From the IMG/VR virus record IMGVR_UViG_3300049855_000139, positions 1 to 43,388 of that record: DNA of 43,388 bases, one strand, 5' to 3'. Position 1 is the stretch's first letter, and each line of letters starts with the position of its first letter. The notes under the pieces are model-generated. The model saw nothing but the letters and a program-made list of their open reading frames with translations. It was not told the origin of the DNA and searched no databases. This DNA is from a virus. A program made the translations under genes and the position numbers. This document shows positions 1,638 to 43,250 of this stretch, piece after piece.

Positions 1638-1666
1638 TTGCTTTCCTCCTCCTCATGAGGCATACT
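1638..1666 (+). promoter_or_regulatory. Predicted promoter of the rightward arm, relative of the repeated promoter
   Basis: TTGCTT (1638-1643) and CATACT (1661-1666) are separated by 17 bp. The spacer begins TCCTCCTCCTC and ends in the palindrome CCTCATGAGG. The hexamer is preceded by ACTA, as in the ten-copy promoter family of this phage, but the AGTAC box is absent. Transcription would start near 1673, giving a leader of about 33 bases with a GAAAGGA ribosome site before the ATG at 1706. Confidence 0.65.
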
Positions 1667-3125: not shown

Positions 3126-3178
3126 ATCGGTACTTTAGTACTATTGCATTCTTCCTCCCGAAAGACGAGAATCAACTC
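3124..3178 (+). promoter_or_regulatory. Repeated leaderless-type promoter, plus-strand copy
   Basis: The AGTAC box (3130-3142) is followed by -35 TTGCAT (3144-3149), a 17 bp spacer starting TCTTCCTCC, and -10 GAGAAT (3167-3172). CAACTC then leads straight into the ATG at 3179. The start codon therefore coincides with the expected transcription start. This is the only rightward copy among the ten full elements. Confidence 0.75.
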
Positions 3179-3853
3179 ATGAGCGACAACACAATCACAC
3201 TCACCCTCGCCGAACTCTTCGAGGCGACGCAAGCCGGAAAGACCTTCGCCATCGCGAACGGGTATCCCGTGGTAATCACGAAGGACGGCGAGAAGATCGA
3301 CTACTACCACGCCGATATGGAGAGCGTCTTGCTTTCCGGCCATGGCGGGACGGTACTTTCTTGCTTGACGGAAACGAGCGCCATTTCCCGGAAGAAAGCG
3401 GAGGCGGAACTCCGCCTGAAGGAATACGTTTGGAGCCGCTGCGAATGGTGTACCATCGACATCGCGACGCCATCGACGGCGGAAGCGGTCCTCGCTCGGA
3501 ATAACGCCGTCGAACCCAATCGCGAGCTTCGCTTCGAGAACGCCGAGGGGAAAGTCGTTCCGGTCGTTGGCGTCGGTGTGACGCGGAGCATCGGCTCGGA
3601 CTCCTACGCGGGGACGATTGTCAAGGTATCCCCGAGCGGTCATCAGTTCACGATGCGGGACGACATCGCGCAAGTCGTCAAGGGTACGGAACAAGACGGC
3701 TCGGCGGAATATATCTATCTACGCAATTCGGCGGGATGCGGAGCCGAGACGGTCTTCTCCCGGCGGCGTGACGGCTCCTACATCCAAGCGGGATCGAGCT
3801 ACGGACGCGCGAACATCGGCATCCGTCGCACGTACCGCGATCCAAGTTTCTAG
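3179..3853 (+). CDS. Hypothetical protein (224 aa)
   Basis: No family was recognised. The N-terminus (about residues 5-45, LTLAELFEATQAGKTFAIAN) looks like an amphipathic helix followed by strands. A CEWCTIDIATPSTAEAV segment near residue 85 contains a CxxC pair. The ATG lies 6 bp after the -10 of the repeated promoter and lacks a Shine-Dalgarno sequence, so a leaderless message is predicted. A strong terminator follows, so the gene appears to be its own transcription unit. Confidence 0.7.
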   Translation: MSDNTITLTLAELFEATQAGKTFAIANGYPVVITKDGEKIDYYHADMESVLLSGHGGTVLSCLTETSAISRKKAEAELRLKEYVWSRCEWCTIDIATPSTAEAVLARNNAVEPNRELRFENAEGKVVPVVGVGVTRSIGSDSYAGTIVKVSPSGHQFTMRDDIAQVVKGTEQDGSAEYIYLRNSAGCGAETVFSRRRDGSYIQAGSSYGRANIGIRRTYRDPSF

Positions 3854-4288: not shown

Positions 4289-4365
4289 AGCGGGGTAGTT
4301 CAGTCTGGTAGAACGTCGGTCTCATAAACCGAAGGTCGAGAGTTCAAGTCTCTCCCCCGCTCCCA
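4289..4365 (+). tRNA. tRNA with CAT anticodon (Met, or Ile2 if modified)
   Basis: A full cloverleaf folds: 7 bp acceptor AGCGGGG/CCCCGCT, 4 bp D stem GTTC/GAAC, 5 bp anticodon stem TCGGT/ACCGA with loop CTCATAA (anticodon CAT at 4323-4325), variable AGGTC, and T stem GAGAG/CTCTC with loop TTCAAGT. The CCA tail is encoded at 4363-4365. The paired A1-T72 and the absence of three G-C pairs in the anticodon stem argue against an initiator. The discriminator is C, which is unusual for Met or Ile2. A CAT anticodon could also be lysidine-modified to read Ile AUA. Confidence 0.93.
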
Positions 4366-7426: not shown

Positions 7427-9972
7427 TAGATGTAGCCTCGCAGAACGCCGATCCCGTTCTTGCCCGGTTGAATCGAGCCGACGTAAAGAATTTCCATCGT
7501 GAGGATATCGTCCTTGACAAGGACCGGGACGGCGAAGTCGTTGAAGGTGAGGATCGCCGTGATCCCGTCGGTATATTGCGGGTTCGTGTTGAAGATGTTT
7601 GTCCCGTTGCGGAGAATCCGCATCTCGAAGAAGCCGCCCGAGGGAGGCGTCGCGAAGTAGAGGGAGAAATCTTTCAGTGTGAAATTGTCGTAGGGGACGA
7701 TGAACGGGTTCCCCCAAACGCCGACTTCCGCGCCGGGGTTCGTGATGCCCGGAAGAGTCTTCGCGATGTCGAAGGGGATGTTCACTTCTTGCGCCCGCGC
7801 CGACTTGCGGATGCGCTTAATCAAGCGGTGCATCGCCGTGAGTGCGTCGCGTTGCTGAATCTGATTCGAGAGCTTCACCGTTTGCCGGAGGACGCGCTTC
7901 GCTTCTTCCTGCAACGTGATCGACTCGACAATAAGCGTCTCGTTGATGTCCATGCCGGGGAGATTGACGACGGTAGACATGCCCGGCTCCAAGCCGTAGC
8001 GGTGCGTACTGAAATCCAATTCAAGGCCCATCACGCCGAAGCGGGTGAGAAGGTTGTCGGCGTACTCCTGAACCATGGCGGCGTCAGAAATATCGGTAAG
8101 GGTTTCGAGCGCCTCATAGATGCCCGTTCCGCCTTCGATGGCTTGCCGGGCGGCGATCTCCGCCGAGTTCTCGGACAGGACAGGCTCGGGGAAATCGGTC
8201 GTGAGCGTGAAGTCAACGGAGAGAACCGTCCCGATGGGGTACTGATCGAAGGTAGGCGAGTTGCGATAGAAGTCGAGAACCGTCGGATCGGTTTGATGGA
8301 ACTCCCATCCCGAGGGAGCCGCCTCGCCCGGACGCCACAACACGACGGGCGTCCCATTAACGCGGACTTCCTCGATACGGGAGAGCTTGTTATTCCACTC
8401 CCACGCCGAGAACAAGAAGCCATTCCAGAAAATGTTATACGGCGTTACCGTGTTGATCGGAACGATGAAATCACGCGTGAGCCGCGCGGCTTCCGGCGCG
8501 ATGGACGCCTTCACATTCTGACGATTCCGGTAGAGTCCCCGATCCCGGTGAACGCGGAGATCGGTCCACAATTGCCCATTGACGCCGCTCGTCGCTTCCG
8601 TGATGTCGAACGGCGCGGACGTAGTCGTCGCCGGGCGGTCGTAGAAGTAGAGGTTCCGGTAGAAATCAAATTGCCAATCCCATCCCGTCGCTTCCGCGAG
8701 GCGGTCGAGGACTTCATTGAGCGGCGTATAGGAGAAATCGAGATCGCCGAGGACCGTCCCCGGATCGCCACGGTTCACCCAAGTAATGCCTTCCGGCGTG
8801 AAGATGCGTTCTTGCAAGTCTTCGAGGATTGATGTCAAGGTTCCGTAGTCGTCGCCCGTGTACTTCATCGTGAGGAGGCGGCGAGAAAGCGACTTCCCAT
8901 AGTCGGAACACTGAACCGAGAAGTCCCGCGTCGGCTCCTGCAAGTGGTAGCGGCCCCAATCAATAGAGTCAATTGTTCCGGCGAAGATCCGAACCCATCC
9001 ATCGGAGCCGGGCTTATAGAAGCCGTGTTCGGCCTCCGTCATGTCTTCATCGAAGAAGTAGATCACGACGGGTTGCCCGATGACAGGCTCCCAACTTCCC
9101 GACTCGTCGGCGGCGGCGAAGGACGCCGAGGCTTGAAAGTTCAATTGCCGATTAACGGAGATGCTGTTCTCCCGAAGGTAGGGAGAGATATTCACGCCAT
9201 TGATGAAGACGGCGAAGTTCGAGTTCGCGGTGTCGAGTGACAGGACCGCGCCGGAGTTTCCGAAAGCTTCTTCCGACTCGATGCCCACGGCTCCCCACAA
9301 GCCCCAATAGATCGAGCCGCCGGAGCCGAAGGCTTCCCCGCTCGGAATGCCCGCCGTCCCCGAGATGAGTGTGTAGACGTTCCCGCCGGAGCCGAAAGCT
9401 TCCGCGCTCGGGATGCCTGTATCGCCATAGATCGGCCCCGCAACGATTCCGCCGGAGCCGAAGGCTTCCGCCGAGGCGATGCCCGTAACGCCGACAATCG
9501 GCCCGCCGACGCTCCCGACGGCCCCGTCCGCGCCGAAAGCTTCCGCCGAGGGAATGCCCGCCGTCCCCGTGACTGTATTCGAGGAGATGGTCCCGCCCGA
9601 GCCGAAGGCTTCGCCCGAGGCGATGCCGGACACGCCAACAAGCGGCCCGGCGACAACGCCGCCCGATCCAAACGCCTCGCCCGAGGCAATGCCGGAGACG
9701 CCCGCGATGTTAAGCCCCGTTGCGCCGCCGGAGCCGAAGGCTTCGCCCGAGGCGATGCCCGTAACGCCGATGATGTACTGGAATGCAACGGTCCCGCCCG
9801 AGCCGAAGGCTTCGCCCGAGGCGATGCCCGTCGATCCCGTGATAGCCGTGTCGAGGGTAACGGACTCGATTTGATCGACAGGAAGACCGTCGATGAAATA
9901 CATTTGCCCGCCGGGAGAATCCGGCGTGTCGAAGGGAAGTCCCTCAAACCATGATTTGTTTTCCGTTCCCAT
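7426..9972 (-). CDS. Tail hub / tail-tip protein with N-terminal GEAFG repeats
   Basis: The 848-residue protein has two parts. Residues 49-243 carry nine copies of a GI(A/P)SxEAFGSGG motif spaced 20-30 residues apart. From about residue 250 it looks like a gp27/gp44-type tail hub: NFAVFINGVNIS, IYFFDEDM, FAGTIDSIDWG, SVQCSDYGKSLSRRLL, then the TGWDWQFDFYRNLYFYDRP stretch and a C-terminal beta-rich domain. The gene follows the beta-helix protein and precedes the lectin-like protein, as expected for the tail tip. The ATG lacks a strong ribosome site and is probably coupled to the upstream gene. Confidence 0.78.
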   Translation of the reverse strand: MGTENKSWFEGLPFDTPDSPGGQMYFIDGLPVDQIESVTLDTAITGSTGIASGEAFGSGGTVAFQYIIGVTGIASGEAFGSGGATGLNIAGVSGIASGEAFGSGGVVAGPLVGVSGIASGEAFGSGGTISSNTVTGTAGIPSAEAFGADGAVGSVGGPIVGVTGIASAEAFGSGGIVAGPIYGDTGIPSAEAFGSGGNVYTLISGTAGIPSGEAFGSGGSIYWGLWGAVGIESEEAFGNSGAVLSLDTANSNFAVFINGVNISPYLRENSISVNRQLNFQASASFAAADESGSWEPVIGQPVVIYFFDEDMTEAEHGFYKPGSDGWVRIFAGTIDSIDWGRYHLQEPTRDFSVQCSDYGKSLSRRLLTMKYTGDDYGTLTSILEDLQERIFTPEGITWVNRGDPGTVLGDLDFSYTPLNEVLDRLAEATGWDWQFDFYRNLYFYDRPATTTSAPFDITEATSGVNGQLWTDLRVHRDRGLYRNRQNVKASIAPEAARLTRDFIVPINTVTPYNIFWNGFLFSAWEWNNKLSRIEEVRVNGTPVVLWRPGEAAPSGWEFHQTDPTVLDFYRNSPTFDQYPIGTVLSVDFTLTTDFPEPVLSENSAEIAARQAIEGGTGIYEALETLTDISDAAMVQEYADNLLTRFGVMGLELDFSTHRYGLEPGMSTVVNLPGMDINETLIVESITLQEEAKRVLRQTVKLSNQIQQRDALTAMHRLIKRIRKSARAQEVNIPFDIAKTLPGITNPGAEVGVWGNPFIVPYDNFTLKDFSLYFATPPSGGFFEMRILRNGTNIFNTNPQYTDGITAILTFNDFAVPVLVKDDILTMEILYVGSIQPGKNGIGVLRGYI
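9244..9828 (-). repeat. Nine-copy GEAFG repeat array inside the tail hub gene
   Basis: Nine related coding units (residues 49-243) read GIASGEAFGSGG four times, and otherwise GIPSAEAFGADG, GIASAEAFGSGG, GIPSAEAFGSGG, GIPSGEAFGSGG and GIESEEAFGNSG. Linkers of 8-18 residues vary freely while the 12-residue core is strongly conserved. Confidence 0.9.
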
Positions 9973-32469: not shown

Positions 32470-33390
32470 CTAGACCTTGGGGTATTGTAGCGTAACGAAC
32501 GCGCCCCGGAGGGGATCGGTCTTGATCGCGACATCCTGAAAGAGGGAAGGCGCGAGCGCCCGGAACATCCCGGCGAGAATCACGGCGACGCGGCGGGCTT
32601 CCGGCTCCGCGTGAAGAGATCCTCGCATGTTCAGGAAGTGACGCCATGCGCGGACGTTCGCCGTCGCAACGATGGGCGCTTCGGTCTCATTCGGGAGAAG
32701 AGCGCGAGCGGCTTGATTGACGGCTTTCCGGCGGTCCGTCTTCGACATCTTGCCAAACTCGGACGGCGTCCCCGCTCGCTCGAAGCTGTCGATCTCGCGT
32801 TCAAGTTGCGCGAGGAGAATCCCGGCCATCTCTTCGTATTGGTCGTAGGCGGTTTCGATTCGGTCGATAAACGCGTCGTGAGCTTCTTCATTCCCTTGGA
32901 ACTCGGGACGGCATACGAAGCGAAGGCGCGAACCGTCAACGTAGCGCTGAGAGACTTGAGAGAACGCGAAGCCCGCCCGGTGGCGTACAAGCTCATGAGT
33001 GAACGAGCGGGAGACGCCATACAGGAGGAAGGAGTAATTCGCATGTTCGAGAACGGAGCCGTGACCGGAGGCTAGGATGTTCTTGATGTACTTCTCCGCT
33101 TCGCCGTTCATTGTGCGATTCGGGGAGAAGCTCATATAGCAAAGTTGCCCGGCGAACTTCGTGAGAGCGACGGCGTCTTCTAACGCGACAGGATCGCGTA
33201 GATAGTTCTGGAAGTCGAGAGCGTCGTCAAACCCGCCGAGGAACTCCTCGACGCCGTCAAGGGTCGTTTCCGGCCTCGCAAGGAGGCATACGCCCGGCTC
33301 GTTGAGATAGTAGACGCCTCCGTTCGTCTTCTGTACTTTCGGATGAATCGCCGTGACGTGCGCGGCGGGAGGTTTCAAAATAAATTCCAT
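32470..33390 (-). CDS. thyX: Flavin-dependent thymidylate synthase
   Basis: The 306-residue enzyme makes dTMP from dUMP using FAD, NADPH and methylene-tetrahydrofolate. The signature is ELVRHRAGFAFSQVSQRYVD, a ThyX-type RHR...SQRY motif; GHGSVLEHANYSF precedes it and RAWRHFLNMRGSLHAEPEAR follows near the C-terminus. Phages encode it to secure thymidine for replication. The ATG at 33390 has an AAAGGA site and overlaps the end of the next upstream gene by 16 bases. The N-terminal part of about 60 residues is longer than in compact ThyX enzymes. Confidence 0.95.
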   Translation of the reverse strand: MEFILKPPAAHVTAIHPKVQKTNGGVYYLNEPGVCLLARPETTLDGVEEFLGGFDDALDFQNYLRDPVALEDAVALTKFAGQLCYMSFSPNRTMNGEAEKYIKNILASGHGSVLEHANYSFLLYGVSRSFTHELVRHRAGFAFSQVSQRYVDGSRLRFVCRPEFQGNEEAHDAFIDRIETAYDQYEEMAGILLAQLEREIDSFERAGTPSEFGKMSKTDRRKAVNQAARALLPNETEAPIVATANVRAWRHFLNMRGSLHAEPEARRVAVILAGMFRALAPSLFQDVAIKTDPLRGAFVTLQYPKV

Positions 33391-34721: not shown

Positions 34722-34985
34722 TCAAATTCGGCGCGTGACTTTCCCCGTCCCGCGATACGTCCGGGCTTGTATCGGGATCGTTGCTTCCGAAAGCGCCTTG
34801 ATCGTGTCGAGGAACGCGAGAAGATCCCCGTCCCGGCCCTTAGCGGCCTCGTAGAGATCGCGGAACGTCGGTCCCGGATCGGGTGACGTTGCGCCGCGCG
34901 TGACGAAGCGGCGGAGCGTGAGAGCGGCGTCAAGCAAATTACGCGTGAGCGCTTCTCGTTCTTGTGACTGATAGCGTGAAGACAT
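34722..34985 (-). CDS. Hypothetical helical protein (87 aa)
   Basis: A Ser/Arg-rich start (MSSRYQSQEREALTRNLLDA) leads into helices (FRDLYEAAKGRDGDLLAFLD) and a basic C-terminus. No family was recognised. The ATG overlaps the upstream stop (TAATG); it is the last gene before the terminator. Confidence 0.6.
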   Translation of the reverse strand: MSSRYQSQEREALTRNLLDAALTLRRFVTRGATSPDPGPTFRDLYEAAKGRDGDLLAFLDTIKALSEATIPIQARTYRGTGKVTRRI

Positions 34986-35336: not shown

Positions 35337-35663
35337 TTATGCGCGGCCCATTGTGCCGAGGCTCGTGTAGAGTCCGGTTTCGGTTTCAAACAAGTCCCGG
35401 AGGTCCTCGGCATAGACGCCGTCGAACTCCGAAACGGTACGAACATTCAAGCCGCGAATCGCGAGGAACTCGACCTTGTAGAGATCGGCGACGAGGTCGA
35501 GGGTCACGCGGACGCCCGTGATGCTCTTCTGAGCGAAGCGGGCGGGAAGGCGGAAGGTGAGAGTGTTCTCGCCGCCGATGAAGTTCTTCGCGCCCGTCAT
35601 GACCGCGAAGCGGTTTCCGCCGAGTTGCGCGAGGATCGTGTTTGCTGTTTGCATGTTGCTCAT
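35337..35663 (-). CDS. Conserved phage/plasmid small protein, MTGAKN type (108 aa)
   Basis: The sequence follows a pattern seen widely in phages and plasmids: ILAQLGGNRFAVMTGAKNFI, then ENTLTFRLPARFAQKSITGV, a strand region KVEFLAIRGLNV, and a helix ending in ETETGLYTSL. Its function is unknown. The ATG is the first ATG after a repeated promoter, 6 bp from the -10, with no ribosome site, so a leaderless message is predicted. Confidence 0.75.
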   Translation of the reverse strand: MSNMQTANTILAQLGGNRFAVMTGAKNFIGGENTLTFRLPARFAQKSITGVRVTLDLVADLYKVEFLAIRGLNVRTVSEFDGVYAEDLRDLFETETGLYTSLGTMGRA

Positions 35664-35716
35664 GAATCTATAATGCTCCCTCAGGAGGAACAATGCAATA
35701 GTACTAAAGTACCGAT
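35664..35716 (-). promoter_or_regulatory. Repeated leaderless-type promoter
   Basis: On the minus strand the AGTAC box is followed by -35 TTGCAT (35693-35698), a 17 bp spacer starting TGTTCCTCCTGA, and -10 CATTAT (35670-35675). AGATTC then leads into the ATG at 35663. The stop codon of the upstream gene merges into the element. Confidence 0.75.
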
Positions 35717-36007
35717 TTACAAATTCTTTGCGGCGAGAAGATTCTGAAGGGAAGGAAGCGTTCGGGCGAGCTTGCGAACGTAGTCGAGGGAAACCGCTTC
35801 CCAATGTTCGCCCGCGTCCTTCATCGTGAATATCTGTCCGGCGACGCCTTCGCAGTCCCGGCGCTCGCCGATAGTTCCCCATCGTTCGAGCATCATCGAG
35901 CCGTGTTTCGTGTCGTTGAAGACGGCGGCGACGTATTGCGGGACTTCCGAGTTCTTCCGGCGAAGCCACATTCCCCGGCGGATCGTGAGGGAGGCGGCGG
36001 CGCTCAT
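35717..36007 (-). CDS. Hypothetical WGR-like small protein (96 aa)
   Basis: The protein carries MWLRRKNSEVPQYVAAVFND and MMLERWGTIGE; the ERWGTIG stretch loosely recalls WGR-type domains, which is a weak resemblance only. The C-terminus is helical and ends AAKNL. The ATG overlaps the next upstream stop (ATGA). Confidence 0.58.
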   Translation of the reverse strand: MSAAASLTIRRGMWLRRKNSEVPQYVAAVFNDTKHGSMMLERWGTIGERRDCEGVAGQIFTMKDAGEHWEAVSLDYVRKLARTLPSLQNLLAAKNL

Positions 36008-36189
36008 CGGGACATGTCCTTCGGGACGATCATGATGAGCGCTCCCTGAAACGAGAAGTGAACGCCGTCCGACTTCCCGGCGCGGAGCCGCTTGAGGAAA
36101 GTTCGGAAGGCGATCTCGGCAACATCGGGGAACGCGGTCATATCCTTCCCCGGAATTACAGTTTGTAGTTTCTTGTCGAGGTCTTTCAT
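36004..36189 (-). CDS. Hypothetical protein (61 aa)
   Basis: A small basic protein, MKDLDKKLQTVIPGKDMTAF at the start and a hydrophobic strand GALIMIVPKDM at the end. It is translationally coupled on both sides by ATGA overlaps. No family was recognised. Confidence 0.58.
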   Translation of the reverse strand: MKDLDKKLQTVIPGKDMTAFPDVAEIAFRTFLKRLRAGKSDGVHFSFQGALIMIVPKDMSR

Positions 36190-36605
36190 GCTTTCCGCTT
36201 TCTCGCCGCATCCTTCGCGGCCTTCTTCTCTTCATCGCGCTCGCGCTTGTCGGCTCGCGCTTTCAGTTCCGCCCCTATCTGAAATATGCGCGTGATGGGG
36301 ACAGTGTAGAAGCTCGACCGCGCGACGCCCTCTTCTCCGATCTCGACGAAGAACGGGCGGACGACGAGCCGGAGCTTCTTCCCGTTATATTCGGCGGCGG
36401 TCTCGATGACGTTCTCGGCGCTTAGGAGGCGTTCGGCGTTGGCGAAGACCTTATCGACCGGGAGCCGCAAGTAAGCCCGGCGGGAATGGCGTTTCTTGCC
36501 GAGGAGGATCTCGGCGGCGGAGACTCCGACGACTATCGGATGCTCCCCGGCGAGGGCGCTCGTCTCGCGGAATGTCGGCTTATCTTTCGTGGTGAGCTTC
36601 TTCAT
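36186..36605 (-). CDS. Hypothetical protein with charged C-terminus (139 aa)
   Basis: A beta-rich body (HPIVVGVSAAEILLGKKRHS, KLRLVVRPFFVEIGEEGVAR, SFYTVPITRIFQI) is followed by a strongly charged helix (RADKRERDEEKKAAKDAARK). No family was recognised. ATGA overlaps join it to both neighbours. Confidence 0.6.
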   Translation of the reverse strand: MKKLTTKDKPTFRETSALAGEHPIVVGVSAAEILLGKKRHSRRAYLRLPVDKVFANAERLLSAENVIETAAEYNGKKLRLVVRPFFVEIGEEGVARSSFYTVPITRIFQIGAELKARADKRERDEEKKAAKDAARKRKA

Positions 36606-37213
36606 GCGATAACCTCCGGCGTCTCGGCGCGGTAGGCGTCGTGAATCGCCTTCACGCGTTGCCGTGTAATGCCGAATTTCGCCCCTACCGCTGCTTGAGT
36701 CCATCCGCCCCGAAGCATCGCGTCTATGGTCTCCGCACGCTCAAGGAACGCCTGTTCTGTGAGCCCGAAGGTCTTCTCGTAGTAGCAACTTCGGGAGCAA
36801 AAGACGAGCGCCGAGTGTTGCGCCGCGCTCGCGGCCCGCTCGAACTCATCGCCACAATTGCGGCATGTCTTTTTTGTGATTCTTCCCATCTGGTACCCTT
36901 CCTTAATTTGACGGTATGCTTCGGCGTGATTGTGGGCTTGCCCCTGCGTCTCGGCGAAGAAAGAAATATCGTGCGCGGGATCGGTGCGCGGACAAGCGCC
37001 GCGAAGATAACCCGCGATCCGAATGAGTTGACGCATGACGCGAATATACTTCACGCGTCGCCCCGGCCTCGTGGAAGCATGCGCTTCCTGAAAGGCTTCG
37101 ATATGCGCCCCGGCGAGGAGACTCAACGCCGAAACGGTAGGCGTCCAAGCTTGGAGCATCTCCGGCGTGATCGCGAAGACGCCCCTGTCGTCCGTGGGGA
37201 ATTCGCCGAGCAT
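36602..37213 (-). CDS. Zinc-ribbon plus helix-turn-helix protein (203 aa)
   Basis: The N-terminal half (about residues 1-108) is helical and unrecognised, with RRVKYIRVMRQLIRIAGYLR. The second half starts at MGRITKKTCRNCGDEFERAA, and its cysteines (CRNC and CSRSC) form a likely zinc knuckle. A helix-turn-helix follows (GGWTQAAVGAKFGITRQRVK). It probably binds DNA. An internal ATG at the second half has its own AAGGAAGG ribosome site, so the zinc-HTH half may also be made alone. The ATG at 37213 overlaps the upstream stop (TAATG). Confidence 0.65.
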   Translation of the reverse strand: MLGEFPTDDRGVFAITPEMLQAWTPTVSALSLLAGAHIEAFQEAHASTRPGRRVKYIRVMRQLIRIAGYLRGACPRTDPAHDISFFAETQGQAHNHAEAYRQIKEGYQMGRITKKTCRNCGDEFERAASAAQHSALVFCSRSCYYEKTFGLTEQAFLERAETIDAMLRGGWTQAAVGAKFGITRQRVKAIHDAYRAETPEVIA

Positions 37214-37515
37214 TACGCGCCCTCGATTCCGAATTGATCGAGAGCGTTCGCGCGGTGAGCGGCGCGGGCGGCGACGGCGGCGGCTTTCCCACATGCCAAG
37301 ATCCAAGCGCCGTATCCCGTGCGGAAGGCGCTCCAATCGGCCCCGGCGAGCCGGAGGGCGGCGACGGCGCGGCGGAAGAGGCGGCGAGTCGCCTTCTCGT
37401 TGGCGGTCTTCGTGTCGCCGAGTTCAATGAAGAGTTCGACTTCGCCCTTCGTGGCGACGAAGCCGCGATAGATGCCCGCCTTGTTGAATGCTTTCGTGAT
37501 TTGTTTGTTGCTCAT
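37213..37515 (-). CDS. Hypothetical protein (100 aa)
   Basis: The protein starts MSNKQITKAFNKAGIYRGFV, has a strand VELFIELGDTKTANEKA, and ends in an Ala-rich helical part. No family was recognised. Unlike most genes behind the repeated promoter, it has a leader of about 20 bases with a TAAGGAA ribosome site. Confidence 0.65.
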   Translation of the reverse strand: MSNKQITKAFNKAGIYRGFVATKGEVELFIELGDTKTANEKATRRLFRRAVAALRLAGADWSAFRTGYGAWILACGKAAAVAARAAHRANALDQFGIEGA

Positions 37516-37538
37516 TGTCGTGTGTTCCTTACACTCTT

Positions 37539-37582
37539 AGAATACGAATTCACGAGGAGGAATGCAATAGTACTAAAGTACC
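37539..37582 (-). promoter_or_regulatory. Repeated promoter, leadered version
   Basis: On the minus strand TTGCAT (37562-37567) and TATTCT (37539-37544) are 17 bp apart, with spacer start TCCTCCTCGTGA and the AGTAC box upstream. Here the ATG is 23 bp after the -10 and has its own Shine-Dalgarno sequence. This supports reading the shared element as a promoter. Confidence 0.78.
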
Positions 37583-37833
37583 TTTTTTATTTTCCCTTGA
37601 CGGCGGCGGAGCCTGTCGCCGGGGAAATCCATCGAATCCGCGATCCGCGTCGCGGCGGCGAGATGGGAAGCCGGGAAAGAAACCTCCCATCGTGCCGTAG
37701 TGGGATCGTTGTAGAACTCGCGGTGCTCCCGCGTTACGTCGGGGATGCCCGCGTTCGTCAAGCGGCGCGACAGGCGGAGGGAGTAGTTTCTCCACGTCGC
37801 GAGCGTTCCATAACTCCAAGTATGCCGTTCCAT
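37573..37833 (-). CDS. Hypothetical protein (86 aa)
   Basis: The protein starts MERHTWSYGTLATWRNYSLR and contains REHREFYNDPTTARWEVSFP. It ends in a basic segment whose last codons, K-K-V-L-stop, use bases of the repeated promoter element (GTACTTTAG). No family was recognised. TAATG overlap couples it to the gene upstream. Confidence 0.6.
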   Translation of the reverse strand: MERHTWSYGTLATWRNYSLRLSRRLTNAGIPDVTREHREFYNDPTTARWEVSFPASHLAAATRIADSMDFPGDRLRRRQGKIKKVL

Positions 37834-38309
37834 TATTGCCCCGCCTTCTGACGAAGCATTGCGTCGCTCGTCGTCTTCCTGATGTCTATTTCCTGAACCG
37901 CGCGGGAGGACTCGCAGCGAACGAGCCAAACCGCGCGGACATGCGGGCGAGCGAGCGCGAGAAGAACGCCGCGCTCTCCCGTTGGGAGCCGGACGACGAC
38001 GCCGCGCTTGGCGTCCTCGACGTGCATCGCGAAGATGTCGAAGCCCTCGCGCGGGACGGGCGTCCGGCGTGTTGCATGCTCGCCCGTGATGATGTCCTCG
38101 ACGAGGAACTCTTTCCCCCGCGCGGTCCAAGAGAAGACGATATTCCCGAGACCGCGAATCTCCGCGCGTTCCCGCTCCTCCTCCCCATAGAAGCCGGAGA
38201 CATAGCGCTCATAGGCTTCCTTCTCCTGAAAGGCGACGCGCCGGGCGGTTGCCTCGTCCACTTGAGCGGGCGAGCCGCCGGAGTATGTCGGAATCACTTC
38301 GTAGGGCAT
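37833..38309 (-). CDS. Hypothetical protein (158 aa)
   Basis: The first 80 residues are acidic and helical (ARRVAFQEKEAYERYVSGFY), followed by a beta-rich half (IVFSWTARGKEFLVEDIITG, GVVVRLPTGERGVLLALARP, VWLVRCESSRAVQEI). No family was recognised. An AAAGGAAAA ribosome site precedes the ATG. Confidence 0.62.
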   Translation of the reverse strand: MPYEVIPTYSGGSPAQVDEATARRVAFQEKEAYERYVSGFYGEEERERAEIRGLGNIVFSWTARGKEFLVEDIITGEHATRRTPVPREGFDIFAMHVEDAKRGVVVRLPTGERGVLLALARPHVRAVWLVRCESSRAVQEIDIRKTTSDAMLRQKAGQ

Positions 38310-38343
38310 TGGTTCATTTTCCTTTCTGAAGAGACGCCCGGCG

Positions 38344-38757
38344 TTAGCCGAGCATCTCACGAAACGCCCGCGCCATCGCGCCCCGGTCGTAATTGTCGTT
38401 ACGCTCCTCGTCGCGGGCGGAGAGCGTTCCCGATCCCTCGCAACGGTAGCAGATACCGCCCGGCCCCGTCGGTTGCCCGTTGACAACGGCGGTGATGAAT
38501 TTCCCCGTCCCCGCACAACGTCCGCAACGCGGGCGGGCATTGAAGCGGTCGATCTCGGCGAGGTAGAACTCTCGCGCCTCTTCGTCCATCGCGAGGACGC
38601 CCGCGCGGGAATCCTTCAGGCGCTTGACGGCAATGACGTGAGGCGTTTCCCAACGGCGAGCTTCCCGGTTCCAGCGGAAGCCCGCGTTCTTGACTTCGTC
38701 CTTCTGAGAGAACTCGCAAGCGGCGATGAAAGTGTTGTTGTTCAGTTTGATAATCAT
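38344..38757 (-). CDS. DUF5710-like protein with DnaJ-type zinc finger (137 aa)
   Basis: Residues 1-45 resemble DUF5710: a short strand start, then KDEVKNAGFRWNREARRWET. A helix region follows, then two zinc-binding repeats of the DnaJ type, CGRCAGTG at 78-85 and CYRCEGSG at 103-110. These bind one or two zinc ions and may contact protein or RNA. There is no J domain. The gene has a repeated promoter with a short leader and an AAAGGA ribosome site. Confidence 0.72.
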   Translation of the reverse strand: MIIKLNNNTFIAACEFSQKDEVKNAGFRWNREARRWETPHVIAVKRLKDSRAGVLAMDEEAREFYLAEIDRFNARPRCGRCAGTGKFITAVVNGQPTGPGGICYRCEGSGTLSARDEERNDNYDRGAMARAFREMLG

Positions 38758-38781
38758 GTTCGTGTCGTCCTTTATGATCCT

Positions 38782-38829
38782 AGAATAAATCATCAGGAGG
38801 AGGAACGCAATAGTACCAAAGTACCGATT
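38782..38829 (-). promoter_or_regulatory. Repeated promoter, leadered version
   Basis: On the minus strand TTGCGT (38805-38810) and TATTCT (38782-38787) are 17 bp apart, with spacer start TCCTCCTCCTGA. The box is the AGTACC variant. The ATG at 38757 is 24 bp downstream of the -10, behind AAAGGA. Confidence 0.78.
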
Positions 38830-39234
38830 TTACTCTTCGCCTGAAGAATCTTTCGGCGGCGTCCGCTTGAAGGCGAAGAAGGCGAAGACCTTCGGGAGCG
38901 GGATGAGCGTCGAGACGCCGCGATAGTTGAGGCGGACGCGGTAAGCGGTCGTGTGGACAGTGTAGGAACTCCCCATATCGCTGATAGTCTCCGCGCGGCC
39001 CTCGCCGACGAGCCGGGCTTCTTCGATTGCGCCGTCGGGAAACAAGACGAGGATCTCCGCCCGTTTCCGGGCGAGGCTTTCGAGCGCCTTCGTTACGTCG
39101 AAGGTCTTCCGCCCGATGGTGACTTGATATCGGAGATGTCCCCAATCGTCAAGCTCCCGGACACGGAAGAAGTCGGAGCGCTTGAGATGCGCCGCCGACG
39201 CGGGCGGCGCGGGCGGCTTAGGCGTAAGCGGCAT
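38830..39234 (-). CDS. Hypothetical protein (134 aa)
   Basis: A Pro/Ala-rich start (MPLTPKPPAPPASAAHLKRS) is followed by a probable alpha/beta region with RVRELDDWGHLRYQVTIGRK, ALESLARKRAEILVLFPDGA and a terminal FAFFAFKR segment. No family was recognised. Its start overlaps the end of the upstream gene by 17 bases. Confidence 0.6.
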   Translation of the reverse strand: MPLTPKPPAPPASAAHLKRSDFFRVRELDDWGHLRYQVTIGRKTFDVTKALESLARKRAEILVLFPDGAIEEARLVGEGRAETISDMGSSYTVHTTAYRVRLNYRGVSTLIPLPKVFAFFAFKRTPPKDSSGEE

Positions 39235-39421
39235 CGAGGTTCACCTTCCCCCGCTTCGCGGCGGCGTCGATGGCTTCGTTGGAGATCGGGAGCGAGCGCC
39301 CGGCGACGAACTTCTTCGCGGCGCGGGCGCTTCCCGTGAACATCATGAAGATGTCGTCGCCCGTGGTGCGGACGATCATCAGGCGGCTTGCAATCGGCTT
39401 AACTTCGTAGGTCGTTTTCAT
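39218..39421 (-). CDS. Hypothetical protein (67 aa)
   Basis: The protein starts MKTTYEVKPIASRLMIVRTT, then FMMFTGSARAAKKFVAGRSL and a short helical end. No family was recognised. The ATG lies 6 bp after the -10 of a repeated promoter and no Shine-Dalgarno sequence is present. Confidence 0.62.
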   Translation of the reverse strand: MKTTYEVKPIASRLMIVRTTGDDIFMMFTGSARAAKKFVAGRSLPISNEAIDAAAKRGKVNLDAAYA

Positions 39422-39475
39422 GTTTTGATTATGTGGGATCGTGAGGAGGAACGCAATAGTACTAAAGTACTGATT
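39422..39475 (-). promoter_or_regulatory. Repeated leaderless-type promoter
   Basis: On the minus strand TTGCGT (39451-39456) and CATAAT (39428-39433) are 17 bp apart, with spacer start TCCTCCTCACGA. CAAAAC leads into the ATG. The AGTACT box lies directly upstream. Confidence 0.78.
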
Positions 39476-39492
39476 TTATTCCTCCTCGAAAA

Positions 39493-39843
39493 TTATTGGA
39501 TCGCGGCGCGGCCCTTCGGCGCTTTCGCGTCGGAGTTCAGGACCGCGCGGAACTCGTCCGGCGTGAGGGCGGCGAGTGCGGCGGCGTATTCGGCCTGAGT
39601 GATCGGATCGTTCTCGATGTTGAAGCGGTTCGACGAAGTGCAATTCGTGAGGTAGAAGTCGGAACCCCAACGGCGGAAGAGGTTATAGCCGGAGCTAACC
39701 TCGCGGGCGAGGATGCCCGTTTTGCAGATGAGAAGGTCATAGGCGTGACCGCGCCGGGCGGGAAGCTCGACGCCCGCCGTGAAGTCGTAGTCGCCCCGGA
39801 TCTCGCAGTTAATAGCGCGTTTGGTGTTGCGTTCGTTGTTCAT
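39493..39843 (-). CDS. Hypothetical protein (116 aa)
   Basis: The protein starts MNNERNTKRAINCEIRGDYD and has a strand-rich centre (HAYDLLICKTGILAREVSSG, FYLTNCTSSNRFNIEN). A C-terminal helix region, QAEYAAALAALTPDEFRAVL, follows. No family was recognised. It is predicted to be expressed from a leaderless message. Confidence 0.6.
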   Translation of the reverse strand: MNNERNTKRAINCEIRGDYDFTAGVELPARRGHAYDLLICKTGILAREVSSGYNLFRRWGSDFYLTNCTSSNRFNIENDPITQAEYAAALAALTPDEFRAVLNSDAKAPKGRAAIQ

Positions 39844-39896
39844 GAGTTTATTCTCGGCTTTCAGGAGGAAGAATGCAATAGTACTAAAGTACCGAA
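39844..39896 (-). promoter_or_regulatory. Repeated leaderless-type promoter
   Basis: On the minus strand TTGCAT (39873-39878) and GAGAAT (39850-39855) are 17 bp apart, with spacer start TCTTCCTCCTGA. AAACTC leads into the ATG at 39843. The upstream gene ends inside the element at a TAG within GTACTTTAG. Confidence 0.78.
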
Positions 39897-40216
39897 TTAC
39901 GCCGGGCGTCATACGAGGCGTTCGCCTTGACATAGGACGCCTTGACACTGTCGAGGGTTCCCGCCATGCGCCCGCGCTTGCCGTAGCCGTCGGCGTGGTA
40001 GACGAAGCCCGTCGCGAGGTCGATCATGAAACACGCGGAGACCTGTCCATTGGTGAGGACGCGGTCGAGAAGGGTGAACTTCCGGCGAACGTCCGTCACC
40101 TGATAACCCGCGTAGGGCGTCGAGGTCCCGAGGGCGTTGTTCGTATTCATGAGATCGACGAGTTCGAGGACGGTCTCGGCGGCGTTGGCGGCGTTGATTA
40201 GCGTGACGTTGTTCAT
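39884..40216 (-). CDS. Hypothetical protein (110 aa)
   Basis: The protein starts MNNVTLINAANAAETVLELV, continues with TPYAGYQVTDVRRKFTLLDR and VSACFMIDLATGFVYHADGY, and ends RRNSVL with its stop inside the next promoter element. The C-terminal Lys/Arg/Gly stretch resembles small nucleic-acid-binding proteins only in composition. A leaderless start is predicted. Confidence 0.6.
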   Translation of the reverse strand: MNNVTLINAANAAETVLELVDLMNTNNALGTSTPYAGYQVTDVRRKFTLLDRVLTNGQVSACFMIDLATGFVYHADGYGKRGRMAGTLDSVKASYVKANASYDARRNSVL

Positions 40217-40270
40217 GAGTCCATCATGCGGGATCATGAGGAGGAACGCAATAGTACCAAAGTACCGATT
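40217..40270 (-). promoter_or_regulatory. Repeated leaderless-type promoter
   Basis: On the minus strand TTGCGT (40246-40251) and CATGAT (40223-40228) are 17 bp apart, with spacer start TCCTCCTCATGA. GGACTC leads into the ATG. The box is the AGTACC variant. Confidence 0.75.
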
Positions 40271-40681
40271 TTAGTCGTCGTCGAAAATTTCTTCGTCATC
40301 GTCGTCGGGGTAGCTGTCCGGCGAAAATTCCCATGACTTGATCCGGGCGGCTCGATGGTGCGCGATGAACTCGGCGCGGTTCGAGAAGAACTTCACGGGA
40401 TCGCGCGGAATCTTCGCGACGACTTTCGCGGCGGCGGGATCGCGCGGGATCTTCACTTCGTTCCTCATCAGGGTAAGCGCCCCGAAACAACGCGGCGCTT
40501 CGGCCTCGGCTTTCTTCCATGCCCGGCCCTTGAGGTTCTGATCCATCGACGTATGGCACGCGAGCGAGGCGTCCGTTAGCGCGTTCGCGACAAAGTTCTC
40601 GGGCGTGTTGCTCCCGAGCCATCCCGGAGGAGCCTCCCGGCGGAAAGGGCATTCCTTACAAGCGGCGCGTTTCGCTTTCAT
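40271..40681 (-). CDS. DUF6283-type protein with acidic tail (136 aa)
   Basis: The protein begins MKAKRAACKECPFRREAPPG, the CxxCPFRR signature shared with the protein at 2787-3125. A Cys-His pair (SLACHTS) and a later Cys (APRCFGALTL) complete a likely metal site. The tail ends in a run of acidic residues (DDDDEEIFDDD). ATGA overlap couples it to the upstream gene. The role of the family is unknown. Confidence 0.72.
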   Translation of the reverse strand: MKAKRAACKECPFRREAPPGWLGSNTPENFVANALTDASLACHTSMDQNLKGRAWKKAEAEAPRCFGALTLMRNEVKIPRDPAAAKVVAKIPRDPVKFFSNRAEFIAHHRAARIKSWEFSPDSYPDDDDEEIFDDD

Positions 40682-41025
40682 AGGGCTTCGATTCTCCGTT
40701 TCCACGCTCCGGCGCGAAGAACGTCGGCTTCTTGGGGATTGTAGATCGTCGAGCGGACGACATTCCCGGAGGCGACTTCGACGAGCGTGACTTCGAGGCG
40801 GCGCGTGTCGATGCTCGACCGCATGAACTCGGCGACGGTCTCGGCCCCACTGAGCGCGGCCCATGCTCCCGAGAGCTTCATGAAATCCCGCGACTCCCCG
40901 GCGACGGGGATTTCTCCGGCGACGATGAGACGATAGGCGAGCGTCGCCTCTTGAAGGACGGTTCCCGGCGCGAGTCCGAAGACGACGCGCGTCCGGGAGA
41001 TATGGCAGATGTAGGGCGCTTTCAT
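40678..41025 (-). CDS. Hypothetical protein (115 aa)
   Basis: The protein starts MKAPYICHISRTRVVFGLAP and contains AYRLIVAGEIPVAGESRDFM, then EFMRSSIDTRRLEVTLVEVA and a helical end. It is probably alpha/beta. No family was recognised. ATGA overlaps link it to both neighbours, including the ComM-like ATPase. Confidence 0.6.
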   Translation of the reverse strand: MKAPYICHISRTRVVFGLAPGTVLQEATLAYRLIVAGEIPVAGESRDFMKLSGAWAALSGAETVAEFMRSSIDTRRLEVTLVEVASGNVVRSTIYNPQEADVLRAGAWKRRIEAL

Positions 41026-41636
41026 TTTGACGCCTCCAAGGATTCCGGCCTCATGTAGTAGAGATCGGCGTATTGCGCCGCTTCCGCCACATGGCGGGCT
41101 TGCAGCGTCGGGGAGGCTCCGAGGTTCGCCACGGCCCGCGCGACGCGAAGGACGGCCTCGTAACGCCACGGGGAGAAGCCAAGCTTCCGGGCGGCGAGTT
41201 CCATCGTCCGGCGAGCGGCGTCGTCGGAGAGTTCGAGGGTGTAGTTCTCTAAGCCGAAAAACTTTGCGCGACAGATACGCTCGGCGGCTTCGGCGAGCCA
41301 TTCCGGGGAATCCTGAGGCGGAGCCGCCATGTCCTTATGAGTCGGCTCGGGAACCTCGACAAGTATCTCGGCGGTCGAGGCGATGCGGAGATCGAAGCGG
41401 CGGAGCCATCTATAGAGCATGCGCGGCGGACAGGTGCAAGCCCGGCGGATCGCGCCATGGTTTCCACACGCGCAAGTATCGACCGCTCGCGCCTTCGGCG
41501 AGAGTTCGGCGAAGGCGGTCAACGTGGTACGCTTGCCGACGCCGCGAGGACCGACGAGCGCGATATTGAGATCCCCGACGAGCGCGATTTCAAGCGCCCG
41601 CTTCGCGACGGCTTTCCCGAAGAGAGTTACGCCCAT
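41022..41636 (-). CDS. Miniature ComM/YifB-like (magnesium chelatase-type) ATPase
   Basis: The 204-residue protein combines the N-terminal P-loop of YifB/ComM proteins (GDLNIALVGPRGVGKRTTLT, Walker A 29-37) with their later signature. The latter is a CxC pair at 55-57, CTC at 67-69 and the PRMLYRWLRRFDLRIAST type segment, followed by VEVPEP. The C-terminal lid helices (FSPWRYEAVLRVARAVANLG) are also present. Bacterial ComM/YifB proteins are about 500 residues; the Walker B and the rest of the AAA core appear to be missing. It may be a degenerate or regulatory form, or depend on a partner. Confidence 0.72.
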   Translation of the reverse strand: MGVTLFGKAVAKRALEIALVGDLNIALVGPRGVGKRTTLTAFAELSPKARAVDTCACGNHGAIRRACTCPPRMLYRWLRRFDLRIASTAEILVEVPEPTHKDMAAPPQDSPEWLAEAAERICRAKFFGLENYTLELSDDAARRTMELAARKLGFSPWRYEAVLRVARAVANLGASPTLQARHVAEAAQYADLYYMRPESLEASK

Positions 41637-41959
41637 GATTCGACGCCCTCCACAAAACGAAAATTCTCTTGCAATAGCGCCGTATCGACGCCATTACGGA
41701 ACGAGTAACCCGTGAAGCCGAGCATCCCGGAATACGGTCCCGACGGGATGACGCCGGAGACCTTCACAAGAATCCAATCGTTGACCTGAAACGCAAGCCC
41801 GGTCTTCGTCTTGACGTTCTTGACGACGATGCCGAGTTTCCACTCGGGACCGTCCCAATGTCCCGCGTATTGCGGGTAGGCTTCATGGGCTTTGTCGGCG
41901 ACGGCGCGAAGGCGAGCCTTCTCCGTGTCGATTTGTTGGGGAGAAAATAAGAAGTTCAT
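41627..41959 (-). CDS. Hypothetical protein (110 aa)
   Basis: A helical start (MNFLFSPQQIDTEKARLRAV) is followed by a beta-rich half with GIVVKNVKTKTGLAFQVNDW, ILVKVSGVIPSGPYSGMLGF and a final FRFVEGVESW. This could be a small SH3- or OB-like barrel. No family was recognised. An AAAGGACT ribosome site precedes the ATG, and its 3' end overlaps the ComM-like gene by 10 bases. Confidence 0.6.
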   Translation of the reverse strand: MNFLFSPQQIDTEKARLRAVADKAHEAYPQYAGHWDGPEWKLGIVVKNVKTKTGLAFQVNDWILVKVSGVIPSGPYSGMLGFTGYSFRNGVDTALLQENFRFVEGVESWA

Positions 41960-41991
41960 AGTCCTTTGCCTTTCGAGAGAAGACGCAATCG

Positions 41992-42243
41992 TTACCGATT
42001 GCGCCATGTATTGATTTGTACGCCGTTATGGAAGACGGGAACATCTAACATCGCTTGCATCCATCCCTGAGACCACGCCTTCAGAATGAGAACCGCGTTC
42101 CCTTTGCCGGGATATTCGCGGATCATGTTCATCCCTTCCGGCCCGCCGACGGGAGCATGCGCCCGGCCTTCGGCGAATGCTTGCCGTCCGAGGGCTTCCG
42201 CCATCTTCCAAAGGTCGTTTTTCTTGATCGTGTTCGTCTTCAT
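41992..42243 (-). CDS. Hypothetical protein (83 aa)
   Basis: The protein starts MKTNTIKKNDLWKMAEALGR, is helical in the first half and ends with WSQGWMQAMLDVPVFHNGVQ. No family was recognised. Leaderless start: the ATG at 42243 is 6 bp from the -10. Confidence 0.6.
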   Translation of the reverse strand: MKTNTIKKNDLWKMAEALGRQAFAEGRAHAPVGGPEGMNMIREYPGKGNAVLILKAWSQGWMQAMLDVPVFHNGVQINTWRNR

Positions 42244-42296
42244 GAGTTTAGTATCGGCTTTCAGGAGGAGGAATGCAATAGTACCAAAGTACCGAT
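42244..42296 (-). promoter_or_regulatory. Repeated leaderless-type promoter
   Basis: On the minus strand TTGCAT (42273-42278) and GATACT (42250-42255) are 17 bp apart, with spacer TCCTCCTCCTGAAAGCC. AAACTC leads into the ATG. Apart from one base in the AGTACC box it is identical to the neighbouring copy at 42441. Confidence 0.8.
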
Positions 42297-42440
42297 TTAC
42301 GCGACGCGCTTCTCGGCGGCGCGGGCGAACAAGGCTTCGAGTTCCTCGGCGGAGTTGACGACGGCGGCGGCGACGGTCTCGACAGTCTCGGAGCCGTCTT
42401 CGTTCGTGGTGATGATTTCGATGTTGATGTTGTTGTTCAT
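42297..42440 (-). CDS. Hypothetical small acidic protein (47 aa)
   Basis: The protein begins MNNNINIEIITTNEDGSETV and ends in an acidic/Ala-rich helix (SAEELEALFARAAEKRVA). It lies exactly between two promoter elements with start and stop flush against them. The clean bracketing supports it as a real gene in spite of its size. Confidence 0.62.
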   Translation of the reverse strand: MNNNINIEIITTNEDGSETVETVAAAVVNSAEELEALFARAAEKRVA

Positions 42441-42493
42441 GAGTTTAGTATCGGCTTTCAGGAGGAGGAATGCAATAGTACTAAAGTACCGAT
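42441..42493 (-). promoter_or_regulatory. Repeated leaderless-type promoter
   Basis: On the minus strand TTGCAT (42470-42475) and GATACT (42447-42452) are 17 bp apart, with spacer TCCTCCTCCTGAAAGCC. AAACTC leads into the ATG at 42440. The upstream stop TAA touches the element. Confidence 0.8.
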
Positions 42494-42670
42494 TTACGGG
42501 TTCGCGCAAACTTTCCCGATTGCCTCGTATGGTCCGAGATGAACGAGGCTCGTCGCGGCGTCGGCGGAGGCGGCTTCGACGCGTCTCCACTCCACCGTGA
42601 AATAGGAGCGGAGAAGCTTGTTCGCGAACGCGTCGTAACGCGTGAGAATCTGTATCGTGTATTTCTTCAC
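42494..42670 (-). CDS. Hypothetical protein (58 aa)
   Basis: The start is GTG at 42670, overlapping the upstream stop as GTGA, which decides it. The sequence (KKYTIQILTRYDAFANKLLR then SYFTVEWRRVEAASADAATS) looks like a small beta-alpha protein of the kind that includes host-takeover proteins. No family was recognised. Confidence 0.58.
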   Translation of the reverse strand: MKKYTIQILTRYDAFANKLLRSYFTVEWRRVEAASADAATSLVHLGPYEAIGKVCANP

Positions 42671-42912
42671 GGCTTCACCCTGAGGACCGGGCGGAATCCG
42701 TCGCGCTTGACTGCTTGGCGCGGGGAGCCGTCCCGCATGTCGATCTCGACGTTGGCGGAGTGAGGAATCACGCCGAGGAAATCGGTCTCCCATCCCCGGC
42801 GCGTCCAAGCGGCGGCGACGCCTCGCCCCATATCGGCGGCGACTTCGACGGTCGAGGCGGAAACCTCATAGGCTTCCGCGCCGTCCGGGATCGTCTCGAA
42901 GATCGTGACCAT
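42667..42912 (-). CDS. Hypothetical protein (81 aa)
   Basis: The protein begins MVTIFETIPDGAEAYEVSAS and includes GVAAAWTRRGWETDFLGVIP; it is mostly beta-strand and Asp/Arg-rich. No family was recognised. Coupled to the next gene by GTGA. Confidence 0.58.
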   Translation of the reverse strand: MVTIFETIPDGAEAYEVSASTVEVAADMGRGVAAAWTRRGWETDFLGVIPHSANVEIDMRDGSPRQAVKRDGFRPVLRVKP

Positions 42913-42913
42913 A

Positions 42914-43198
42914 CTAGCGGCCCTCCGGGAGAGTGATGGGCTTGCAAGCCTTGAGAGCTTCGCCGAGGGCTTCGAGCTTGGAGCCGTAGACGATGGAGAA
43001 GACGGCCCAATCGTATTGGAAGCCGTTACCTTCGGGATTGAGCTTCGCGCCGAAGACCTTAAAGGGATGCGTTTCCGTGCGCGTGTTCTTGTACTTCTCA
43101 ACGAAGCCGAGGACGGTCTTCTCATTGAGCTTGAGCATCCACGCGTCGGGCTTCCCGGTTTGAATCTTGATCCATTGGACTTTGTTCGTGTCGTTCAT
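42914..43198 (-). CDS. Hypothetical protein (94 aa)
   Basis: The protein begins MNDTNKVQWIKIQTGKPDAW and has ETHPFKVFGAKLNPEGNGFQ in the middle and a C-terminal helix (SKLEALGEALKACKPITLPE). No family was recognised. It is predicted to be read from a leaderless transcript and to start a three-gene unit with the two following genes. Confidence 0.6.
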   Translation of the reverse strand: MNDTNKVQWIKIQTGKPDAWMLKLNEKTVLGFVEKYKNTRTETHPFKVFGAKLNPEGNGFQYDWAVFSIVYGSKLEALGEALKACKPITLPEGR

Positions 43199-43250
43199 GA
43201 GTTCAGTATGAAAGATCACGAGGAGGAATGCAATAGTACTAAAGTACCGA
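43199..43250 (-). promoter_or_regulatory. Repeated leaderless-type promoter
   Basis: On the minus strand TTGCAT (43228-43233) and CATACT (43205-43210) are 17 bp apart, with spacer start TCCTCCTCGTGA. GAACTC leads into the ATG at 43198. The AGTACT box lies upstream. Confidence 0.78.

Follow-up and report, generated by a model that had tools for sequence, protein, structure and literature searches.

Ten near-identical phage promoters, with an operator-like upstream box, predicted to make mostly leaderless mRNAs

A viral DNA stretch of 43,388 nucleotides (IMG/VR record IMGVR_UViG_3300049855_000139, positions 1 to 43,388; the window, in what follows) was found to contain ten near-identical elements that are predicted to act as promoters and, in eight cases, to start the mRNA at the AUG itself. 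The sequence evidence for this prediction is strong and is comparative as well as internal. The earlier note on this DNA had proposed promoters with leaderless messages, and this proposal is supported, not proven, by the exact spacing, by the contrast in Shine-Dalgarno (SD) sequences and by the enrichment of one start codon offset in other phages; from these data we infer transcription starts and leaderless translation at these elements. In addition, the data indicate that the box preceding each promoter is a separate operator-like module, present in many unrelated phages in two promoter geometries and accompanied in the window by a weakened -35.

The ten elements have a common layout, in which RGTACTTTRGTACTA is followed by TTGCRT, a spacer of exactly 17 bp (10/10) and a -10 of the form NANNNT. 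One element is on the plus strand (TTGC start at 3144) and nine are on the minus strand (TTGC starts at 43233, 42475, 42278, 40251, 39878, 39456, 38810, 37567 and 35698). Most elements are directly preceded by a TAA triplet, which usually terminates the upstream gene. Hexamers about 17 bp apart, as expected of sigma-70-type promoters, were present in all ten, with a -35 matching the sigma-70 consensus at just three of six bases. The arrangement of box, TTGC(A/G)T, spacer and NANNNT described in the earlier note was recovered at every site, with two corrections: the copy at 39471 carries AGTACT and not AGTACC, and the spacer of the copy at 35698 begins with TGTTCCTC and not with a CCTCCTC-type tract. 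The count of ten also held for boxed elements, but not for the family, which includes an eleventh, boxless and leadered copy at 1638..1666 on the plus strand (TTGCTT, a 17-bp spacer with a TCCTCCTCCTC tract, CATACT, then AAGGA and an ATG at 1706). This copy has a weak -35, yet no box, which speaks against the activator reading given below.

The gap between the -10 and the ATG is exactly 6 nt in eight of the ten elements, which confirms the claim that the ATG starts 7 bases past the -10. Simple arithmetic gives a chance expectation of about 0.04 occurrences of TTGCRT-N17-NANNNT-N6-ATG per 43 kb on both strands, against the eight observed. On the plus strand, the element at 3129..3172 (box 3129-3142, -35 TTGCAT 3144-3149, -10 GAGAAT 3167-3172) precedes the ATG at 3179 of a 224-aa ORF (3179..3853), whose C-terminal part resembles a lineage-2 gene (see below) behind a boxed element (G013 32656-33003). 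The remaining seven are on the minus strand. The element at 43205..43248 (-10 CATACT, ATG 43198) is followed by a 94-aa ORF (42914..43198) with a homologue near 70.5 kb in the relative G029, that at 42447..42490 (GATACT, ATG 42440) by one of 47 aa (42297..42440), and that at 42250..42293 (GATACT, ATG 42243) by one of 83 aa (41992..42243). Behind the element at 40223..40266 (CATGAT, ATG 40216) lies a 110-aa ORF (39884..40216) weakly similar to G022 and G003 lineage-2 genes that also follow boxed elements. The elements at 39850..39893 (GAGAAT, ATG 39843) and 39428..39471 (CATAAT, ATG 39421; the AGTACT half-box copy) precede ORFs of 116 aa (39493..39843) and 67 aa (39218..39421), respectively. 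Finally, the element at 35670..35713 (CATTAT, ATG 35663) precedes a 108-aa ORF (35337..35663) of the family phrog_9437, which is widespread among phages; a homologue in G022 lies behind a boxed element.

Most other genes of the window have an SD-like sequence where they may plausibly start, whereas these eight have none; a GGAG 12 nt 5′ of 35663 falls inside promoter DNA. On the contrary, the two elements with a distant ATG do carry an SD, as the earlier note had it. These are the minus-strand elements at 38782..38825 (-10 TATTCT, ATA at the +1 place, ATG at 38757 after 24 nt) and 37539..37582 (-10 TATTCT, GTA at the +1 place, ATG at 37515 after 23 nt), in which AAGGA and TAAGGA, respectively, are located 10 nt 5′ of the ATG. 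The start regions of the eight genes were also rich in CA/AC (6.5 vs 2.5 per 18 nt, p=0.0002). This richness was observed as well in the two leadered genes behind boxed elements, and may mark promoter-proximal genes generally.

Leaderless genes of Deinococcus-Thermus and Actinobacteria have a TANNNT-like -10 located 6-7 bp 5′ of the ATG and no SD (PMC3160421, PMC12340547), and the spacing validated experimentally in Deinococcus equals that of the window (PMC12340547). Unlike those bacterial genes, the window elements would form a phage regulon, in which near-identical copies share an operator box and the -35 always lies 17 bp from the -10.

Comparative data point in the same direction. No close phage relatives of the window were found by megablast, but G029 proved to be a complete, collinear relative with a 55-bp terminal repeat, and the window is likely an incomplete genome. 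Six boxless promoters of G029 consist of TTGACA, a 17-bp spacer, a -10, 6 nt and ATG; the layout thus persists without the box, with a consensus -35 where the box is missing. A scan of other phages for promoters followed by N6-ATG, akin to the one suggested in the earlier note, gave the same 6-nt peak with TTGAC[AG] as the -35, both in G029 (7/13 TTGAC[AG] sites) and in lineage 2, a group of phages of about 100 kb unrelated to the window phage. For lineage-2 TTGAC[AG]-N17-NANNNT sites, the ATG stood at 6 nt in 18/119 vs about 3 at other offsets. Reversed sequence, used as control, showed no ATG peak. Of 41 boxed lineage-2 promoters of the window type, 18 had the ATG 6-7 nt past the -10. A more distant relative, G001, showed neither the box nor the ATG peak. 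Among GenBank phages, the lineage-2 terminase matched only that of the Acidobacteriota phage Tunturi_3 (22%), which was rejected as a pointer to the host on account of its lack of the box.

Messages from the boxed lineage-2 promoters are predicted to open AUGGAG...; a second AUG, preceded by an SD, follows, mostly 15 nt further on. They resemble E. coli mRNAs that combine a 5′-terminal AUG with an SD-led start (PMC4965119), with the difference that the two lineage-2 AUGs share frame in 12/14 and belong to a promoter family, not to scattered genes.

The box is a 14-bp near-palindrome, RGTACTTTRGTACT, located one base 5′ of the -35 and centred at about -43.5 when the A of the ATG is taken as +1. 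It recurs in unrelated viral contigs, where it takes two fixed positions relative to the promoter. The reversed box pattern, a control, gave no matches. Class A is the window type, with the box one base 5′ of the -35. In class B, strong TTGACA-N17-TACTAT promoters with a near-perfect -35 (TTGACA), often located before endolysin genes, have the box overlapping their spacer and -10. The gap from box to TTG was 1 nt in 67 cases, 2 nt in 8 and other in 1, a count biased towards a fixed distance, since the records were partly found by patterns requiring CTATTG. Since TTGACN is frequent among lineage-2 class A sites, weakening of the -35 is best seen in the window. The status of the box as an operator-like module was absent from the earlier reading of the window. 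NtcA sites have the form GTA-N8-TAC and were rejected as an identity for the box, whose spacing is N6. A literature search for the box sequence found no paper.

In the reading that we consider probable, a weak σ70 promoter is assisted by a regulator bound at about -43 and yields leaderless mRNA, with one regulator acting in opposite signs at the two classes. Each element would be a complete sigma-70-type promoter filling the gap between two genes; at eight of the ten, RNA polymerase would start on the A of the ATG, and the ribosome could begin on the resulting leaderless mRNA without an SD. A single sequence-specific regulator, most probably an activator, is predicted to use RGTACTTTRGTACT as its operator; both its existence and its sign of action are deduced from sequence. 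All ten transcription units, which mostly comprise small genes without assigned function, would be switched jointly, and at class B the same regulator, bound over spacer and -10, would repress strong promoters, those of lysis genes included.

The model resembles that of lambda PRM, a weak promoter with an operator upstream of or overlapping the -35, where CI activates while repressing a strong promoter elsewhere. A PRM-like operator is centred near -42, and the window boxes, centred at about -43.5, similarly lie upstream of the weak TTGCRT, where the activator would touch RNA polymerase as CI does at PRM; the dual action is likewise proposed here. The mRNA is leaderless in both cases, by prediction in the window and as named for lambda cI (PMC4965119). 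The window differs from PRM in having ten copies serving different genes and a box unlike lambda operators; moreover, a search of 20 records gave no CI-like protein of the S24 type (LexA/CI), and the window is likely incomplete. Searches by BLAST, HMM and Pfam gave no convincing regulator gene common to all box carriers. A 95-aa zinc-ribbon/HTH_23 protein of the window (36602-36889) is a regulator candidate only.

Rather tentatively, and at somewhat less than even probability, we propose that the 14-bp box serves one undescribed regulator, which from about -43 activates small takeover genes through promoters that are weak and often leaderless, and from over the -10 represses strong lysis promoters. 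Taken jointly with this proposal, and no more firmly held, is the idea that such a regulator may be a host protein used by unrelated phages or a gene exchanged between them. If true, it would represent a one-protein early/late switch across many environmental phages.

The main rival to the activator model is a LexA-type repressor. The promoters would again be leaderless, with the box as operator of a host LexA-type protein silencing classes A and B until DNA damage, and the phages would be SOS-controlled without a repressor of their own. We regard this reading as unlikely. All ten boxes fit the cyanobacterial LexA (SOS) consensus RGTACNNNDGTWCB and resemble AGTACWNWTGTACT (PMC3091678); however, their inner positions depart from the cyanobacterial site, and no DNA-repair regulon or LexA was tied to the window box. 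The class B placement is classically repressive, whereas at class A repression needs neither the fixed 1-nt gap to the -35 nor the weak -35 of the window. A single box in unrelated phages suits a host protein, and the missing S24/CI/LexA gene and the phage-integrase domain encoded by G006 agree with the rival as well. A host regulon would then be expected, but among 84,980 prokaryote genomes strict variants gave no class A-like match, and only four matches to the box 19-mer (one on a phage-like contig) vs about 3.7 by chance. A 33-mer search in distant mode gave two 20-base plasmid matches, which were judged to be due to chance. The joint release of lysis and early genes would also be odd.

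A second alternative, which appears quite improbable, retains the repeated promoters but places the mRNA start a few bases off the ATG, or has the mRNA processed, with leadered translation independent of SD; the box would be a passive repeat, through recombination of which the cassette spread, in the manner of T4-type PeSL cassettes. The latter resemble the window elements as repeated early promoter cassettes between genes; they differ in being flanked by stem-loops and in having no such box, and they are not known to be leaderless. Duplication of the whole element, its neat fit between stop and start codons, the near-identical spacer DNA in the window, G029 and G033, and the homologues of three window class A genes behind lineage-2 class A elements agree with such spreading. 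Nevertheless, it would not account for a single exact ATG offset in several phages, boxless G029 promoters included, nor for a box kept at expected operator positions, in two geometries, within otherwise unrelated DNA. A non-promoter repeat linked to translation or replication, such as start-associated sequences (SAS) or iterons, is highly improbable: the elements lie just 5′ of gene starts, as do the many, mostly one-direction SAS/ESAS repeats of cluster K mycobacteriophages, ESAS with an inverted repeat, but SAS is 5′-GGGATAGGAGCCC near the start, a motif absent from the window elements, with no fixed -35/-10 layout noted in the portion of the source consulted (PMC3203893), and the eight genes have no SD inside the element, the -35/-10 distance is constant while much of the spacer is variable, G029 counterparts have the consensus TTGACA, and one boxed promoter precedes a tmRNA gene, whose RNA does not function as a message that opens with a start codon.

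To our knowledge, phage leaderless mRNAs have so far been studied gene by gene, as in the case of lambda cI. Judging from sequence, sets of leaderless promoters appear to be in use in the window phage, in its complete relative and in unrelated phages, and the common layout together with the upstream control box points to a shared, apparently undescribed way to switch viral gene sets. Phages may deliberately exploit non-canonical initiation while taking over the cell, for example if infection disturbs leadered initiation. Furthermore, the box with its two geometries would offer a direct and testable route to a new transcription factor, and might also reveal which hosts these uncultivated phages infect.

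The ten promoter elements described in the earlier note were re-found in the window at the coordinates given there, one on the plus strand and nine on the minus strand, all with the layout RGTACTTTRGTACTA, TTGCRT, 17 bp and NANNNT. In line with the claim that eight copies place an ATG directly at the predicted transcription start, the ATG lies exactly 6 nt past the −10 in 8/10 elements, against a chance expectation of 0.04 such promoter-ATG units by our own arithmetic. The two exceptional copies do carry AAGGA-type Shine-Dalgarno (SD) sites, 10 nt ahead of a later ATG, with ATA and GTA occupying the place 6 nt past the −10. An SD-like stretch was observed near a plausible start in most other window genes, the start codons in this comparison being our choice and not curated. 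TAA immediately precedes most elements, usually as the stop codon of the preceding gene, and an eleventh, leadered element at 1638-1666 has no box.

The leaderless layout was tested through the −10-to-ATG distance over all TTG..-N17-NANNNT sites, a test described as unbiased. The window gave a single marked peak, at 6 nt (8 sites), and no peak was found in reversed sequences or in the more distant relative G001. The 6-nt offset was also recovered in the relative G029 (7/13 TTGAC[AG] sites) and in ten contigs of lineage 2, a set of unrelated phages of about 100 kb (18/119 sites vs about 3 at other offsets). G029 (77.6 kb, 55-bp terminal repeat) is the nearest relative of the window, with collinear structural genes of about 33-88% amino-acid identity. 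Six of its promoters combine TTGACA, a spacer that contains a TTCCTC tract, a −10 and an ATG after 6 nt and lack the box, which shows that box and leaderless layout can be separated. G029 also has, on the minus strand at 34814, 34679 and 34549, three promoters of type TTGACTTCCTCYTCCAGATGAGSTATGCT that resemble each other, stand in tandem and lack a clear gene start. A third phage, G033, has the TTGCATTCTTCCTCCTGA core in common, with GTG 6 nt past the −10 at 21408 and, provided that the spacer is taken as 18 bp, ATG at the same distance at 30059. The same −10-to-start spacing is found in a validated leaderless motif of Deinococcus (PMC12340547) and in a bacterial survey of leaderless genes (PMC3160421). 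The promoter layout is a fact of sequence, from which we infer transcription start sites and leaderless translation. CA-rich gene starts help leaderless initiation; they are present in the window genes predicted to be leaderless but also in the two leadered class A genes, so that CA-richness is weak support.

Viral contigs with no relation to the window also contain the box. Its lineage-2 carriers (G003, G005, G006, G009, G013, G016, G017, G022 and others) have almost no detectable proteins in common with the window. In class A, where the box lies upstream of the −35 as it does in the window, TTG follows it by one base at 67 sites, by two at 8 and otherwise at 1, and the genes behind are mostly small. 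The ATG lies 6-7 nt past the −10 in 18/41 lineage-2 class A promoters; 14 of those 18 starts open with ATGGA[GT], in frame with a subsequent, mostly SD-led ATG in 12/14, an arrangement resembling E. coli 5′-terminal-AUG mRNAs (PMC4965119). These copies are related to one another and therefore are not independent events. For three class A genes of the window (3179, 35663 and 40216), related lineage-2 genes likewise follow class A elements, the likeness being weak for 40216. In class B (TTGACA-N17-TACTAT) the box overlies spacer and −10, and the products of the genes behind, some named by eye, include GH108 endolysins, an SprT-like protein, a Cas4/RecB-like exonuclease and membrane proteins.

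The last 1.1 kb of L187 (G020) contains perfect boxes in repeated pairs facing apart, about 500 bp between pairs, in an iteron-like arrangement. In IMG/VR contig 3300031566_009333 (L135/L188), which also has phage replication genes, a box with TTGC...TATATT stands directly ahead of a tmRNA gene whose tag is long (ANLFEKVSNFVSKLFGSEYNFHAVAVPA; L188 4981, minus strand). The MAG 'uncultured archaeon LFW-28' includes contigs of a bacterial-type phage of lineage 2 (L064/G010:C38, C10), probably through misbinning, and a predicted leaderless class A site lies at C38:32607. G006 encodes GroEL, GroES and a response-regulator domain. A RecA-like protein, recognized by eye, occurs in lineage 2 and G021, and related proteins are encoded by G029 and G033.

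The window, which spans the whole IMG/VR record (43,388 bp, 59% GC), derives from a tailed phage, and terminase, portal, tape measure, HK97-type capsid and prohead protease were identified in it. It is probably incomplete, since no terminal repeat was found in it and its relative G029 reaches 77.6 kb; a missing regulator gene there thus tells little. A possible regulator is encoded at 36602-36889 on the minus strand, a protein of 95 aa that has zinc-ribbon-like cysteines and is HTH-like at its C-terminus. The window also carries a tRNA-Met gene (4289-4365) and a repeat of about 66 bp (CCGCCGGAGCCGAAGGCTTC...), in about nine tandem copies at 9260-9855 within an 848-aa tail gene and as single copies at 21061 and 22192.

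The component parts (sigma-70 promoter, leaderless start and upstream operator) are already known, and the box sequence had no match in the literature searched. The main rival to a regulator that both activates and represses is that the box is the operator of a LexA-type repressor, because 10/10 window boxes fit the cyanobacterial LexA consensus RGTACNNNDGTWCB (PMC3091678) and no S24 protein was found in the box carriers searched. Against it, a host regulon was not found in two genome scans with strict patterns, which covered part of the box variants. To touch RNA polymerase, an activator needs its site at a constant distance from the weak −35, an arrangement known from CI at PRM, and a site that overlaps a strong −10 is that of a repressor. 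The −35 is TTGCRT (3/6 consensus) with the box in the window and TTGACA without it in G029. Since the class A box stands in the place of an activator and the class B box in that of a repressor, we favour one putative regulator with both actions, which at class A promoters would touch RNA polymerase at the weak −35 and activate transcription, and at class B promoters would bind over the strong −10 and repress it.
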